Of a stretch of 55,996 nt of DNA, positions 27,560 through 34,275 are shown in pieces. Both the position numbers and the translations under genes were made by a program. Under the pieces are notes generated by a model. That model saw only the letters and a list, made by a program, of their open reading frames with translations, was not told the origin of the DNA and did not search any database. The stretch's first letter is position 1, and every line of letters begins with the position of its first letter. The stretch comes from an uncultured Victivallaceae bacterium (GTDB lineage: Bacteria > Verrucomicrobiota > Lentisphaeria > Victivallales > Victivallaceae): assembly GCA_944392655.1 (NCBI GenBank), contig CALXXL010000014.1, positions 1-55,996 of the forward strand. The letters run 5' to 3'.

Positions 27560-27623
27560 CCAACGTCGATAGAAATATTACGGATATAAATCTATCCAAA
27601 ACCATTAACCAATGAGGTATACA

Positions 27624-30600
27624 ATGGCTTTTACAGAAGTTGTCGACTCCAATAATTCACCTGTTGTTGGAGAGTATGTAACCAACGGTACTCAGACCGT
27701 TATGGACGGCGGAGTAACCAGCGGCGGTTCTATCAGCGGCGCCGAAGGCAGCGCAGCTATAATCGTCAGCAGCGGCGGCAAAGTTTATGACCTTCAGGTA
27801 AACGGCCCCAATACTATGATTTATCTGCGGGGCGGCGAACTTATTAACGCTCAAATCGAAAACCTCGACCCTGCATGGTATACCGGCGACGGCGTTTTTG
27901 CTCATATGCAATTCTCCGCCGGCGTTATCGAAAACTGCTATTTTAAATACGGGATGCTTACAACTGTCGGAGATAACGGGCAGATCGTTAAAAACTGTAT
28001 CCTCTCCGGCGATGAAATGGTTAACAACCAGGGACTCCATTATACCAACTTCCGTATGGGCGCAGGGGTTATGTCCAACTGTACTGTAACAGGTTACGGC
28101 AACCTGCTCTTCGGATATGGCAACGTGGACGGACATAATTTTTCACCGGTTGCATACAATACCATCGTTACAGGTAACGGTAATGTTGACCTTCGGGAAA
28201 ATGCTATACTATATGATACATATATGAATGGCGGCAAAATCACCGCTGCCGGTAAGTGCAGCGGAACTGTTATCGATAACGGAACCCTGAACGTTGTTAC
28301 TACCGGATCAATTTATGATACCGTAATGAACGGCGGTACCTTAATGGTATCCAAAACCGAAGGCGTAGCTATCGATGGTGCTACTTTAAAAGGCGGCATT
28401 TTCCAACTTGGCGCATCCGGATGCATTATAAAAAATGTTACAGCTGAAAATACCAAACTTGTCGGCAATAATGCAGACGCTTATCTTATGGTAGCAAATT
28501 TAAACGCATTCGAAAATGTTACCTGGAACGGATATGATCTGAACGAAACTTCTGCCGCTATCAGCAACGGATCTCTGCTCAACAACGCAGATGCAAAAAC
28601 TCTTAAGTTCCTCATTGTCGATGATTCTACTTTCATTATGTATGCCGACGGCCTGGTCGAAAATATCACCATTAAAGGCGAATCCGGATGGATTCAGACC
28701 ACCAACGGTACTCTCAATAACGTTACTATCGAAAACGGCCGCCTCGAAGCCATGGGCACAACAAAAGTTAACAAGGTCTCCATTGTCGGCAAAGGATATC
28801 AGGAAGCATGGCATGACGGTTCTACTTTGGTCGCATTCGGCAGCTCCGTAATCGACGATGTGGAAATAGCAGCCGGCGGATCTGCTCACGTTTATGAAAC
28901 TTCGCAGGTGTCTAATATAACCGTTAAAGACGGCGGCGTTCTCCGTATGGAAGGCTGGAGCACCGATAAAGTATACTCCGGTACCGTTGACGGCGTTACC
29001 GTTGAGGCAGGCGGTAAAATGGTTTTCGGACACTATGATACAACCAGCGGCACCGCCACTATCAAAAATACCACCATCGAAGAAGGCGGGATGCTCCAGA
29101 TTACCGGTCACGATTTTTCTTTGGAAAACTTCGTTATCAACTACGGCGGCAGTGAATATCTCGTAACTGTCGACGCTGAAAACAAAACTATTGACGGCCT
29201 GGTTCTCGCGGAAGGTTCTATTTATAACGGATTCGGCGAAAATGATACCCACGGCCTTACCAATGTCGTCGTTATCGAAGGCGGCTCCATCAACGATATG
29301 AGCCTGAACAGCACCGTATCCGGCGAATTCTTCTTCGCTGACGGATCTTCTCAGACCCTCGATATCTCCGGCGGCGAAGTCAAGAGCTTCGTCGTTGCCA
29401 ATGGCGCCGTACTCTATGGCTCTGCCGATGGCACGATGAATAATGTCACCATACTCGATGGCGGATCCCTCGCCGGACTCACCATGTCTACCAACCTTAC
29501 CGGTAAATATGTATATGCCGACGGTTCACAGCTTGAGTTCTATATCCAGGACGGCGCCGAAGGACGCGAAGCCAAAAACCTCGTATTCAACGGAACCGCT
29601 TTCTCCCTCGACTCAGGCAAGGCGGAAAATATCACCATGAACGGCGCAACTTTGATCGCTTCCAACGCTTCCGCTACCGGCGTGATCCTCGCCAACGGCG
29701 CAAGCCTCATGATCAATGACGTTGCCGGAGTTTCCCTCGAAGGTATTAATAAAGATTACAGCGAAACTTCCGATAATTACAACTTCTCGGTCAGCAGCAC
29801 TGAAGCAAGCAATGTCGTCCTCGCTAACGGCGCAATCTTCAAAATGGCCAATAACTACTCCTTCGCAGGCGGCGTTGTCACCGGCAGCCGCGCTGCAGCG
29901 GAAAACGGTTACAGCCAGGAAGATTTTGACGTATACGGCGGCGCTTCTGTTCTCCAGGTCAATGAAGGCGGAAAAGTCGACGGAACCGTGTTCGAAAATG
30001 GCGGCGTTCTGGAAGTAAATGGCGCAAATACCAGCATTTCCAATATCGTGGTCGGCGAAGACGCTGTCCTCAGACTCAACCTCGCTTCCACCGGCAATAT
30101 CAACGGTACTATCTACGGTTTCGTCGATGATGAAGAAAACGCCGGTCGCAACCTGACTTTCGACGGTAAGAAAATTACCAACGTCAGACTGGTTGGCAAC
30201 AACTCCAGCCTGACACTCGGCTCCGGAATGACCGCCGAAAACGTCGAAATGATCGGAATGAATAAAAATGTTATCACTGGCGACAGCAGCAATACTATCA
30301 CCAACCTCTATCTCGATGTGGAAGGCACGGTAGATGCTTTCGAAGCCAATATCAAGAATCTTATTCTCGTAGACGGCGAATTCCAGGCCCGCGCTAAAGT
30401 CGACGGCGCGGTCGTATCCGGCGACGCGGTCCTTTCCACATCACTCGACAACGCTGTATTCAATGACATCACACTGAAGGATTCCGCTACATTGACAATC
30501 GGAAGCGTTATCAATCAGTGGAGTAATACAGCATACGCTGCAACGGTTACCAATATCGTTACTGAAGATGGATTCACCGGAAAAATCGCCCTGCGCAACG

Positions 30601-32867
30601 GCGTTATCAACGGATTGAACATGAACGGCGGCACTCTGGAACTCGACAGCACCGCTGAAGCGGCTCCGGATCGCACCGGCATCAACCTCGATTTCAAGGG
30701 TAACTACTACTTCCAGAATACCACTATCAATGATAACTACGGCAACGGTATTACCTTTGACGACGCATCTACCACCAGCGTCATCTTCGGCGCAGGCAAC
30801 AAAATCAATGCGAAAGTCAATTATACCGCTAATGACGCTACCATTATCTTCAACGGCGAAGGTAATAACATTACTAAACAGATCAGCGCGACCAATGTCG
30901 TATTCGATCTGACCAATATGGCAAAATGCCCGTCTCTCCTCGTCAGCGATCTCAGCATGATCAGCGCCAGCATGAGAGGCGAATATATTATCGACGCTGA
31001 ATGGCGCCAGGGGTATTACAACCTCGGTAAAGCTGAAAAATTCAACGTCGGTATGAGATTCGACGTCGATGGAACCACCGTAAATGATTATTTCCGCGCC
31101 GGTCAGTCCTACACTCAGGACGGATACACCGCAACTCTGGAAAAAATCAATAACTACCTGGTTCTCTCCATCAAGGCGGATGCCAGCACCAATACCAAGT
31201 TCAGCTGGAAAAATAACTCCGATCCAGCTCCGTACTACGTCAACGATATTACCGAGACATCCGGTACCGTATACCTCGGCAATACCATGGAAACTGAAGC
31301 CAACGGTCACGCATTCAAGAGCGTCGGCGGTAAAATCTCCGCGGCCGGAATCATCACTTCTTCCATGAATAATATGACGTTTTTCGGCGGCAGCAATACC
31401 AACGATCGCGCAGCAAGCTGGATCAAGGTTACCGGCGGCAGCAATAACGTTATCTACGGCGGCGGCGACGGCAAGAATATGACCGACGGCACCAATATCT
31501 GGATCTCCGCCAGCAATAACGCTAAAGTCTACGGCGGCAGCAATAATGCCAATGTTACCGGAGATATCAATGTCGATATCGACGCCGGCAGCTATATCAC
31601 CGTATTCGGCGGTAATAATAACGGCGGAACCGTTACCGGCAATATCAACGTCAACGTTGCAGAAGCTCAGATCAACAGCCACTTCGCTGGCGGCGGTATC
31701 GGATCTGTTGTCGGAAATATTACCAGCGAAATTTCTGTAAATAAAGTTTCCGCAGGAAATATCTTCGGCGGCGCTATCGGCGACGCTTCCATCGCCGGAG
31801 GCAATGTGGACGGTAATATCGCCCTCACTATCAACTCCGGTTCTTATCAGGGCCTCGTCTTCGGCGGCAGCCGCATCAGCGGAGACGCTTCCGCTACAGT
31901 TACCGGTTCCATTACCCTGAACGTAAACAATATTACACATCAGGATAATGACGCCATCCTCGAAGAAGGTCCGACTTCATGGATCGTCGGCGGCGGTCAG
32001 GCTGTAGAAGGCGGCAAGCTTACTGCCGGAGCCGTATCCATCTCTATCGCTGATTCCAGCATCGGACGCGTAGTGGGCGGCGCTCAAGCTGATGGCGAAG
32101 GTTCCGTTGCCGAGGTCGGCGATGTCGAAATCTCTATCGACAACTCATCCGTTGTCAACATCTTCGGCGGCGGTTACGCATACAACAACGGCGCATCCAC
32201 AGTCAACGGCGATACTTACATCGTAATCAACGCTGGCGACCGCACCACCATTACCGGTAATATCTACGGCGGCGGCGATAACCCCGCAAGCGGAGTTTAC
32301 GGCGGCAGCGCTACGGTTTCCGGCGACTCCACTATCGAATTCTCCGGAAACGGCGATTCACTTATCTTCACTGGCGTGGTTAACGGCGACGGCATGATCG
32401 CTGGAACTGTGGCCGGAGATAAGAACCTCGTATTCAAAGGATTCTCCGGAACTTTCAACGGTACCGCAGTCAATTTCGACAACGTATCGTTCTCCGGCGA
32501 TACCGCTATGAATATGGCTAACAGCTTCTCGGTAAGTTCTATGACTTTCGACCTGTCCGAACGCTCAAGCTCCATGGCTAATGACGGATTCGTAAGCGAC
32601 GCTGCGTCATTCAACTTCACCGACGGCGAAAAGAATATCAACCTTATTTTCGACTTCGATTCCGATTCGTTCGACTTCGCTCTGATGGACGTCTCCGACG
32701 AATCACTCGAAGGCGCAACCGTAAATATCTTTGATATCAACAGCGATCAGACCGTTTCTCTTACCTTCGGCAGCCAATTCGCTATCGACGGTAAAGGCGT
32801 CTTCAACCTCGACGTTGACGACAACGGCATGTTGACCGCTTCTTTCAAGAAAGGCGCCCTGGCGTAA
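27624..32867 (+). CDS. Giant AIDA-like repeat protein without signal peptide
   Basis: 1747 residues. Start ATG 27624 follows GAGGTATAC; the frame opens 4 codons earlier. Residues 1 to about 1130 are short degenerate beta-helix repeats of the 'NGGTLxVxxxG / GGxxxNxTVxNGG' type, akin to AIDA repeats (parallel beta-solenoid). A second block (about 1230-1640) is built of GGS/GGG-rich repeats such as VYGGSNNANVTGDINVDIDA, each giving a turn of 'FGG...GNI.V.V'. The protein is acidic and almost free of Cys. There is no signal peptide and no C-terminal autotransporter barrel; it ends FKKGALA. Secretion by a type I-like or other C-terminal-signal route is likely (inference). It is followed by a strong terminator. 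Confidence 0.85.
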   Translation: MAFTEVVDSNNSPVVGEYVTNGTQTVMDGGVTSGGSISGAEGSAAIIVSSGGKVYDLQVNGPNTMIYLRGGELINAQIENLDPAWYTGDGVFAHMQFSAGVIENCYFKYGMLTTVGDNGQIVKNCILSGDEMVNNQGLHYTNFRMGAGVMSNCTVTGYGNLLFGYGNVDGHNFSPVAYNTIVTGNGNVDLRENAILYDTYMNGGKITAAGKCSGTVIDNGTLNVVTTGSIYDTVMNGGTLMVSKTEGVAIDGATLKGGIFQLGASGCIIKNVTAENTKLVGNNADAYLMVANLNAFENVTWNGYDLNETSAAISNGSLLNNADAKTLKFLIVDDSTFIMYADGLVENITIKGESGWIQTTNGTLNNVTIENGRLEAMGTTKVNKVSIVGKGYQEAWHDGSTLVAFGSSVIDDVEIAAGGSAHVYETSQVSNITVKDGGVLRMEGWSTDKVYSGTVDGVTVEAGGKMVFGHYDTTSGTATIKNTTIEEGGMLQITGHDFSLENFVINYGGSEYLVTVDAENKTIDGLVLAEGSIYNGFGENDTHGLTNVVVIEGGSINDMSLNSTVSGEFFFADGSSQTLDISGGEVKSFVVANGAVLYGSADGTMNNVTILDGGSLAGLTMSTNLTGKYVYADGSQLEFYIQDGAEGREAKNLVFNGTAFSLDSGKAENITMNGATLIASNASATGVILANGASLMINDVAGVSLEGINKDYSETSDNYNFSVSSTEASNVVLANGAIFKMANNYSFAGGVVTGSRAAAENGYSQEDFDVYGGASVLQVNEGGKVDGTVFENGGVLEVNGANTSISNIVVGEDAVLRLNLASTGNINGTIYGFVDDEENAGRNLTFDGKKITNVRLVGNNSSLTLGSGMTAENVEMIGMNKNVITGDSSNTITNLYLDVEGTVDAFEANIKNLILVDGEFQARAKVDGAVVSGDAVLSTSLDNAVFNDITLKDSATLTIGSVINQWSNTAYAATVTNIVTEDGFTGKIALRNGVINGLNMNGGTLELDSTAEAAPDRTGINLDFKGNYYFQNTTINDNYGNGITFDDASTTSVIFGAGNKINAKVNYTANDATIIFNGEGNNITKQISATNVVFDLTNMAKCPSLLVSDLSMISASMRGEYIIDAEWRQGYYNLGKAEKFNVGMRFDVDGTTVNDYFRAGQSYTQDGYTATLEKINNYLVLSIKADASTNTKFSWKNNSDPAPYYVNDITETSGTVYLGNTMETEANGHAFKSVGGKISAAGIITSSMNNMTFFGGSNTNDRAASWIKVTGGSNNVIYGGGDGKNMTDGTNIWISASNNAKVYGGSNNANVTGDINVDIDAGSYITVFGGNNNGGTVTGNINVNVAEAQINSHFAGGGIGSVVGNITSEISVNKVSAGNIFGGAIGDASIAGGNVDGNIALTINSGSYQGLVFGGSRISGDASATVTGSITLNVNNITHQDNDAILEEGPTSWIVGGGQAVEGGKLTAGAVSISIADSSIGRVVGGAQADGEGSVAEVGDVEISIDNSSVVNIFGGGYAYNNGASTVNGDTYIVINAGDRTTITGNIYGGGDNPASGVYGGSATVSGDSTIEFSGNGDSLIFTGVVNGDGMIAGTVAGDKNLVFKGFSGTFNGTAVNFDNVSFSGDTAMNMANSFSVSSMTFDLSERSSSMANDGFVSDAASFNFTDGEKNINLIFDFDSDSFDFALMDVSDESLEGATVNIFDINSDQTVSLTFGSQFAIDGKGVFNLDVDDNGMLTASFKKGALA

Positions 32868-32889: not shown

Positions 32890-32926
32890 AGTCCCGGCCG
32901 TTCAACAACCGGCCGGGACTTTTTTT
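32890..32926 (+). terminator. Strong Rho-independent terminator of the giant gene
   Basis: Perfect 11-bp stem AGTCCCGGCCG / CGGCCGGGACT with a 9-nt loop and a run of seven T. Confidence 0.95.
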
Positions 32927-32937
32927 GTAAATAATAT

Positions 32938-32966
32938 TTGACTTTTTATATTTATATCGATATATT
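32938..32966 (+). promoter_or_regulatory. Probable promoter of the peptide/kinase/PqqD cassette
   Basis: TTGACT, exact 17-bp spacer, TATATT, 46 bp upstream of the small peptide gene and directly after the giant gene's terminator. It shares its -10 hexamer and spacing with the promoter of the second giant gene (36248-36276). Confidence 0.65.
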
Positions 32967-33012
32967 ATAAGTAATGTTTTCTACTTTTTCAGTTAACGGT
33001 AAAGGTAAAGTC

Positions 33013-33126
33013 ATGAAAGAAAAATATGAAGCTCCGGAAATAGTTGTCATGGAATCCGATATAAAAGATGTTATAGCGGTCAGCGCTACTCATGAAGGAT
33101 TCGAAGAAGAGGAGTATGAATGGTAA
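33013..33126 (+). CDS. Candidate RiPP precursor peptide, 37 residues
   Basis: Short gene with its own ribosome binding site (AAAGG, 8 bases upstream) and a promoter 46 bp before. The peptide begins MKEKYEAPEIVVMESD: Tyr5-x2-Pro8-x-Ile10 matches the YxxPxL leader motif that PqqD-like recognition proteins bind in lasso-peptide and related RiPP systems. After a hydrophobic stretch (DVIAVSAT) comes an acidic aromatic C-terminus (GFEEEEYEW). Ser15, Ser24 and Thr26 are possible phosphorylation sites for the kinase encoded next. The core after Thr26 is only about 11 residues, too short for a classical lasso. Function unknown; the RiPP reading comes from leader motif plus neighbours. Confidence 0.7.
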   Translation: MKEKYEAPEIVVMESDIKDVIAVSATHEGFEEEEYEW

Positions 33127-33191
33127 TAATACCATAGCATACATCTCAATAATAAAACAATCGCTTAAGTATACAAGCTGAAAAATCAATT

Positions 33192-33221
33192 GCAGTATGT
33201 TTTCATATCAAAATATACTGC
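33192..33221 (+). promoter_or_regulatory. 12-bp hairpin between peptide gene and kinase gene
   Basis: GCAGTATGTTTT pairs with AAAATATACTGC (one G-U), 6-nt loop. It ends 13 bp before the kinase ATG. No T-run follows, so it is more likely an mRNA stability or partial-attenuation element, as often lies after RiPP precursor genes. The rest of the gap 33127-33234 shows nothing else. Confidence 0.6.
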
Positions 33222-33234
33222 ACTACTATTTTAT

Positions 33235-33987
33235 ATGGCAGTATTTGATATCAGTTTAGCCGGACAACGGATCGGAATAGACTCCATTTATGATTATGTT
33301 TTCAGTTTGTGCCGGAATTATATAACCACAGAAAATCATGGCGACGCTCCGGATTTTAAAGTGAAAATATCCGATGAAGATATCGATCGGGAATATTACA
33401 AACTGATTCAACAGGTTAATGCCGAAAAGAAATCATTTCAGAAGTTTTCCAGACCATATCTGGAGTCTCTCGCCGTATACCGCAAAATCGCTGCCGAAAT
33501 CGTAAATTATAATACCATACTCTTCCACGGCTCGGTTATCGCGGTGGATAATTCAGCATTTATGTTTACCGCCCCCAGCGGAACCGGAAAATCTACCCAC
33601 GCAAAATTGTGGCGGGAATTGTTCGGCAAACGGGCTGCCATGATAAATGATGATAAACCTCTACTCAAAATATACGAAAACAATATAATCGCATACGGCT
33701 CACCATGGAGCGGAAAACATCGACTGGAAAATAATATCGCCGTACCATTAAAAGCGGTAGCTTTTTTACAGCGAGGCACCCGGAACCATATCCGTCAAGT
33801 TACACCTCAGGAGATTTATGTGAACATAATTGAACAGACTTTTAAACCCGAAGATCCTCAGAAAATTGCACTTATATTGAAGCTGATCGATAAAATGATC
33901 CAGAATACACGCTTCTATATAATGACATGCAATATGGAAAAAGAGGCAGCCGTCGTTGCTAGCTCTTCTATGATGCAAATTTTTTAA
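33235..33987 (+). CDS. HPr kinase-like peptide serine kinase (PadeK-type)
   Basis: 250 residues. Walker A APSGTGKS at 113-120, then THAKLWRELFG, INDDKPLLKIY (acidic Walker B-like/base position), YGSPWSGKH and NNIAVPLKAVAFLQRG. This order is that of the HprK-like kinases found in lasso-peptide clusters such as paeninodin, where the enzyme phosphorylates a Ser of the precursor. It lacks the N-terminal half of true HPr kinase/phosphorylase. I chose ATG 33235, which matches the family N-terminus MAVFDISLAG; a TTG at 33190 would place the intergenic hairpin inside the gene. The ribosome binding site is poor. The PqqD-like gene follows after 18 bp. Confidence 0.85.
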   Translation: MAVFDISLAGQRIGIDSIYDYVFSLCRNYITTENHGDAPDFKVKISDEDIDREYYKLIQQVNAEKKSFQKFSRPYLESLAVYRKIAAEIVNYNTILFHGSVIAVDNSAFMFTAPSGTGKSTHAKLWRELFGKRAAMINDDKPLLKIYENNIIAYGSPWSGKHRLENNIAVPLKAVAFLQRGTRNHIRQVTPQEIYVNIIEQTFKPEDPQKIALILKLIDKMIQNTRFYIMTCNMEKEAAVVASSSMMQIF

Positions 33988-34005
33988 TAATAAGGTGATT
34001 TTTCT

Positions 34006-34275
34006 ATGAAACTCAAAGAGGGAGTCGTCCTTCACTTCAACGGCGAAAAGTATATCGCACTTACCACCGGAAACGCAGCAAAAAATTTTAACGGAATAAC
34101 ATACAGCAATTCCACCGGTAATTTTATTATGAATCTGCTGCTCAATGAGGATATCTCCGAACTGGAAATCATTCAGGCGGTAACCAAAAAATATGACGTA
34201 GATTCAGTAACAGCAGGCAAGGATGTCCACCGTTTTCTGGAAAATCTACGTCATATCGGAATATTGGACGAATAA
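34006..34275 (+). CDS. PqqD-like peptide recognition protein (RRE)
   Basis: 89 residues, the usual size of PqqD/RRE proteins. EGVVLHFNGEKYIALTTGNA and AKNFNGITYSNSTGNFIMNLL form the beta-winged part, followed by helices (EIIQAVTKKYDVDSVTAGKD, VHRFLENLRHIGIL). Such proteins bind the leader of a RiPP precursor and present it to a modifying enzyme. AAGGTGA precedes the start. It ends 5 bp from convergent msrB. No radical SAM enzyme, protease or cyclase gene is adjacent, so the kinase is the only visible modifying enzyme. Confidence 0.9.
   Translation: MKLKEGVVLHFNGEKYIALTTGNAAKNFNGITYSNSTGNFIMNLLLNEDISELEIIQAVTKKYDVDSVTAGKDVHRFLENLRHIGILDE

Follow-up and report, generated by a model that had tools for sequence, protein, structure and literature searches.

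Our analysis of the 56-kb window (the whole stretch of DNA that was read, 55,996 nucleotides) reveals an intact A-K-B cassette at 33013-34275, in which the ORFs of a short YxxP peptide (A), an HprK-like kinase (K) and a PqqD-type RiPP recognition element (RRE; B) follow one another, and which reads, at the level of sequence, as an LPP-like system from outside Bacillota, in a variant with a DVIxxS leader and three genes in cis. We consider it probable that this cassette makes a linear phosphorylated RiPP resembling the linear polyphosphorylated peptides (LPPs; Popov et al., May 2026, PMC13381572): B would bind the leader, K would phosphorylate Ser24, and the product would be cleaved after Ile21 and exported, with peptidase and exporter supplied in trans. 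This view draws on the genes themselves, on a conserved peptide motif and its spacing, on the predicted folds, on conserved leader-binding and kinase residues, and on further parts that relatives carry or that lie on other contigs of this genome. A first-pass annotation of this DNA had pointed to the same three-part arrangement of YxxP peptide, kinase and PqqD-like protein, which is borne out with all ORFs intact; the DVIxxS block, a 13-bp hairpin, the system parts elsewhere in the genome and the LPPs as nearest described relatives had escaped it.

The cassette and its precursor peptide

Upstream, the 1751-aa gene is closed off by an inverted repeat plus T run, which sets the cassette apart from it (Table 1). 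At the other end, a convergent msrB/SelR (methionine sulfoxide reductase) gene, identified by Pfam and the ORF list, lies immediately past B, and no S, D or N gene of the LPP set stands in cis with A-K-B. The AT-rich stretch around the candidate promoter contains 11 promoter-like matches against 4.8 expected from shuffles; because these matches top the shuffles only modestly, the promoter of its own that had been ascribed to the peptide is plausible and no more. The ribosome binding site ascribed along with it has a counterpart in AAGG at 33003-33006, ahead of the start codon. The hairpin in the peptide-kinase gap lies directly upstream of the kinase ATG and may be an attenuator or processing site that tunes the ratio of peptide to enzyme.

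Table 1. Features in and around the A-K-B cassette (window coordinates)
Feature	Position	Strand	Basis
GC-rich inverted repeat with T run	32893..32925	+	Read directly from the sequence; absent from the list of a simple hairpin scan
Candidate sigma-70-type promoter, TTGACT-17-TATATT	32938..32966	+	10/12 consensus matches; weak, in an AT-rich region
Precursor peptide A, 37 aa	33013..33126	+	ORF; motif scan; spacing compared with BsfA and LppA
13-bp hairpin in the peptide-kinase gap	33191..33222	+	MFE z-score -3.2 for 33127-33240; second scan agrees
HprK-like peptide kinase K, 250 aa	33235..33987	+	Homologue alignment, motif residues, AF2, Foldseek
PqqD-type RiPP recognition element B, 89 aa	34006..34275	+	PF05402, profiles, AF2, Foldseek

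The peptide ORF, which runs from an ATG to a TAA, encodes MKEKYEAPEIVVMESDIKDVIAVSATHEGFEEEEYEW and contains two blocks, YEAPEI at residues 5-10, the predicted RRE-binding motif, and DVIAVS at residues 19-24, whose Ser24 sits at Tyr5 +19. Pfam and NCBIfam searches with such peptides returned no accepted family. Scanning for the full motif, [YF]xxP-(10)-[DE]x[hydrophobic]xx[S/T], we found 11 short ORFs in 282 kb of type-1 kinase loci; 298 kb of control loci gave none, and shuffles gave 0-1. The count is partly circular because the motif was partly defined on peptides that it counts: several of them helped to define it, and the L085 peptide was found by the scan from outside the definition. Within the 56 kb of the window the motif occurs once, at the candidate ORF, where local shuffles lead one to expect 0.1. 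YxxP by itself was rejected as a test for precursors, since it matches 17 of 86 control genes and the longer spaced motif alone discriminates. A recognisable YxxP peptide is not found at every kinase locus (11 matches in 23 loci); even so, the reading of the small ORF as a RiPP-type precursor, which had come with the question of whether it is kept beside homologous kinase/PqqD pairs, withstands the comparison of related with control loci, the peptide being conserved across homologous kinase loci.

Some peptides of this kind depart from the window example. At L032:1276-1362 a 28-aa precursor, MKEVYETPQLKIIEFKAEDVITTSSEAE, has a predicted core of just seven residues, and at L080 (genome G230) a YxxP-DAI peptide with a Cys-containing core and no Ser at Tyr+19 adjoins a kinase, an RRE, a signal-peptidase-like (SpI) gene and a radical SAM protein. 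YxxP peptide genes often lie directly 3' of a gene for a large secreted or repeat-rich surface protein (27612-32867 in the window; also L082, L085, L096 and L097), an adjacency that occurs in both host groups and may be coincidence.

The two proteins, their relatives and their genomic setting

The longest kinase ORF starts at TTG 33190 and spans 265 aa; homologues align from the ATG at 33235. The protein carries the Walker A sequence APSGTGKS, and 18 homologues all share its H98, G116, G118, K119 and D140. Against the H-G-G-G-K-S-D-D motif of BsfK, the window kinase keeps H98, G116, G118, K119, S120, D139 and D140, with Ala113 in place of the first glycine. Pfam gives only sub-threshold matches to Hpr_kinase_C, a PDB sequence search with the kinase profile returned no match, and the AF2 model (pLDDT 93.9) finds PEPCK and HprK/P structures in Foldseek. 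Motif residues and modelled fold together place the protein in the HprK/PEPCK superfamily, which includes HprK, in keeping with its first description as HPr-kinase-like.

B matches Pfam PqqD (PF05402) at E = 1.2e-11, its profile matches comprise the lasso RREs TbiB1, TfuB1 and PbaB1 as well as LppB, and the best Foldseek match of its AF2 model (pLDDT 90.6) is the TbiB1-leader complex. In LppB, N33 contacts the leader at the Pro kink, D70 hydrogen-bonds to the Tyr, F74 is the pocket residue beside the Pro, and Y60 lies in the Tyr pocket; N35, Y63, D73 and F77 of B align with N33, Y60, D70 and F74, and N35 is invariant in 15 sequences. What had been called a PqqD-like protein is an RRE carrying the residues with which LppB holds YxxP.

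Three further genomes of the same class encode kinase homologues, as do two named Bacillota contigs, one of them from a Lachnospiraceae bacterium. Among 200 genomes from the family of that host (the Lachnospiraceae set), 32 have a kinase match at E<=1e-30, with about 15 loci close. Regions around kinase homologues usually have the order K-B-S, with an RRE in 19 of 22 and an SpI-like peptidase in 18 of 22, and several add an MsbA-like ABC exporter and a PF14907 nucleotidyltransferase. In the order of the host the type-1 kinase is patchy (3/137 genomes), and the sister genome of the genus gave no kinase match. The type-2 kinase clan is common there (44/137 genomes); its regions contain an RRE in 19 of 22 and an SpI gene in 14 of 22, and in several a YxxP peptide lies directly upstream. 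In a tree of the kinases, the window protein forms a pair with the L085 kinase of the Lachnospiraceae set at 91/90, below the mark for strong support, and the G230 kinase falls inside a clade of Lachnospiraceae-set kinases at 100/99. A single origin of the type-1 kinases of the host group is therefore not supported, and the placement of the G230 kinase suggests horizontal transfer, so that the tree is consistent with exchange among gut bacteria. A scan of viral contigs for the kinase system found none, and plasmid tblastn gave weak partial matches only; a record labelled 'Bacteriophage sp.' (MT835590.1) with a K-B-S-D operon was set aside as a phage case and looks like a bacterial fragment.

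Two loci (L093:4906-7191 on the minus strand and L098:7793-9907) contain an SpI-like peptidase apparently fused to an ABC exporter (704-761 aa), with the ABC domains of the L093 fusion confirmed by Pfam. At L079 (G073 contig C37) the neighbour of a type-1 kinase is a 287-aa protein that begins Cys-rich and contains a Hint domain; next come a protein that looks by eye like a radical SAM enzyme and an RRE. This locus may encode another kind of RiPP, whose precursor would process itself.

Elsewhere in the window's own genome we find several parts of such a system. Contig C15 encodes a 205-aa signal-peptidase homologue with the Ser/His/Asp motifs of archaeal-type SpI (GNSM/VHRI/GDNN), which is conserved in the sister genome, where it lies next to the same gene. 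The first-pass statement that no protease gene is present accordingly holds in cis and fails genome-wide, and relatives have such a gene beside the kinase. The C15 enzyme belongs to the type-2 SpI family and matches the type-1 SpI profile weakly (E 0.01), so it may serve the cassette on C3 instead, and its role for the window cassette is uncertain. Contig C10 carries an RRE followed by an ABC-transporter-like protein (identified as ABC by eye, not by Pfam), and two PF14907 proteins lie on C20 and C1, one of them in a polysaccharide locus. A further A-K-B cassette lies on contig C3 (L077:6659-7896); its YxxP peptide, MEYKSPQISELETQLYCDSEIGSSVDQPIDPGDQPWS, differs from that of the window, and its kinase is of the type-2 clan. 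Just upstream of this cassette lies a pilin-like gene. A third kinase homologue, on C16 (L151:5421-6311), was set aside, having no RRE nearby and adjoining methyltransferase and mutS-like genes; its homologue in the sister genome likewise adjoins mutS (L166).

Comparison with known phosphorylated peptides

The closest described systems are the LPPs, cyclase-free kinase-plus-RRE RiPPs with the gene set A-K-B-S-D-N, stated to be restricted to Bacillota, whose kinase modifies core Ser3 of FETxxS with the leader cut after FET (PMC13381572). The window cassette shares with them a YxxP precursor, a discrete RRE with a Tyr-type leader pocket (N35, D73 and F77 matching N33, D70 and F74 of LppB), an HprK-like kinase, as judged by homologues, motif residues and model fold, a Ser three residues into the predicted core, and the lack of a macrolactam cyclase; its relatives share the SpI-like peptidase, the MsbA-like exporter and the NTP transferase. 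It differs in its host, which lies outside Bacillota, in its leader (DVIxxS as against VLxHQxIxFETxxS), and in a Tyr-to-Ser distance of 19 rather than 18; against the LPP consensus YxxPxVLxHQxIxFETxxS, the window segment YEAPEIVVMESDIKDVIAVS has the YxxP and the xxS end only. The SpI-like leader peptidase, the NTP transferase and the MsbA-like exporter that belong to LPP clusters are missing in cis, with their counterparts in this genome being the C15 homologue, the PF14907 proteins on C20/C1 and the RRE+ABC pair on C10. With the precursor consensus unmatched and three genes of the cluster absent in cis, we do not file the cassette as an LPP. Equally, the first-pass label of an undescribed RiPP system is too strong, because LPPs use the same enzymes without a cyclase (PMC13381572); the underlying observation is sound and the idea largely right, yet less novel than it seemed, and it gains precision from the DVIxxS block, the phosphosite predicted here, a host outside Bacillota and parts that lie scattered through the genome. 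The three genes of the supposed minimal system probably represent a reduced cassette of the larger A-K-B-S-D-N set.

A second point of reference is the phosphorylated lasso peptide of Bradymonas sediminis, in which BsfK phosphorylates core Ser3 of BsfA with strict regioselectivity and BsfB1 assists both phosphorylation and cleavage (PMC10368454). The likeness lies in the RRE-assisted HprK-type kinase and in the spacing: with Ala22 taken as core residue 1, Y5, P8, I10, V20 and S24 of the window peptide correspond to Tyr-17, Pro-14, Leu-12, Ile/Val-2 and Ser3 of BsfA. From this match to BsfA, and with core Ser3 modified in LPPs too, one expects phosphorylation at Ser24 and a leader that ends at Ile21; of the sites proposed in the first pass, Ser24 is favoured as the conserved Ser at Tyr+19, and Ser15 and Thr26 are not. 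Unlike the Bsf system, the window genome has no lasso leader peptidase, its operon has no cyclase, and the predicted core starts with Ala rather than the ring-forming Gly. Paeninodin-type lasso clusters likewise combine a short precursor with a neighbouring HprK-like kinase and PqqD-type RRE, but they use a WxxP leader, phosphorylate a C-terminal Ser and include B2 and a cyclase, none of which has an equivalent here. HprK-related and PqqD-related proteins also occur together in the SynChlorMet cassette (ScmC/ScmD) and the HPr-rel-A system of NCBIfam; scores for HPr-rel-A (TIGR04352/TIGR04353, 18.9/200 bits and 14.9/35 bits) fall far below the curated cut-offs, that for ScmC is 16.7/125 bits, and the window cassette contains no radical SAM gene, the SynChlorMet partner.

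Proposed mechanism and alternative readings

We propose that B would grip the YEAPEI strand of the leader and so present the DVIAVS segment to K, which would phosphorylate Ser24, nineteen residues past the anchoring Tyr5, once or more than once. A Ser-His-Asp signal-peptidase-like enzyme would then cut after Ile21 to give AV(pS)ATHEGFEEEEYEW, which an ABC transporter would export, peptidase and exporter probably being supplied from unlinked loci; trans-supply is the economical reading of the missing parts. Counting against this scheme is the G230 peptide, which has YxxP and D-x-I and lacks the Ser at +19.

One may ask whether the three genes suffice, with the peptide phosphorylated by K and B and acting uncleaved in the cell. 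Nothing else lies in the operon, msrB/SelR converges right after B, and the genome holds a second three-gene A-K-B cassette; we nevertheless think this unlikely, as an SpI-like peptidase accompanies most related kinases, this genome has such a peptidase and an RRE+ABC pair elsewhere, and the conserved DVI block, at a constant distance from the Ser that follows it, resembles a processed leader end. The patchy distribution in the order and the sister genome without a kinase match would also suit a decaying LPP-like cluster that has lost peptidase, exporter and transferase and yields no product, a reading that three intact ORFs, conserved catalytic and binding residues and a peptide retaining the full motif make decidedly improbable.

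We give very little credence to a remnant or unusual phosphorylated lasso cluster. Its attractions are an RRE closest by profile to lasso B1 proteins and a residue spacing that matches the lasso precursor BsfA; it fails because the B2 transglutaminase-like leader peptidase (PF13471) is missing from the whole genome searched and the predicted core is unsuited, AVSATHEGFEEEEYEW starting with Ala, given the predicted cleavage site, and so departing from lasso cores, which open with a ring-forming residue, mostly Gly, and have Asp/Glu at 7-9. No Asn-synthetase-like cyclase was found among the operon ORFs. That the peptide is no ordinary lasso, as the first-pass annotation held, agrees with this. 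It is just as hard to believe that the small ORF arose by chance and that kinase and RRE act on another peptide: YxxP alone is indeed common by chance in control genes, but the longer fixed-spacing motif has its single occurrence in the window at this ORF and separates related from control loci by 11 to 0.

Returning to the LPP-like reading with parts in trans, we suggest more tentatively, and at somewhat less than even confidence, that YxxP-(10)-DVIxxS peptides with an HprK-like kinase and an RRE constitute a distinct class of linear phosphorylated RiPPs, as yet unnamed, in gut Lachnospiraceae and the host's order, some with predicted cores of seven residues, run here as two A-K-B cassettes sharing one unlinked peptidase and one unlinked RRE-exporter pair. 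The (poly)phosphorylation of peptides by HprK-type kinases, a theme still young, has to our knowledge no known biological role. The locus and its relatives carry this theme beyond Bacillota, define a second, directly searchable leader signature (DVIxxS), and offer a small three-gene test case that is easy to express and for which one phosphoserine position is predicted. Should the parts of such systems indeed act in trans, cluster-based mining would miss many of them.
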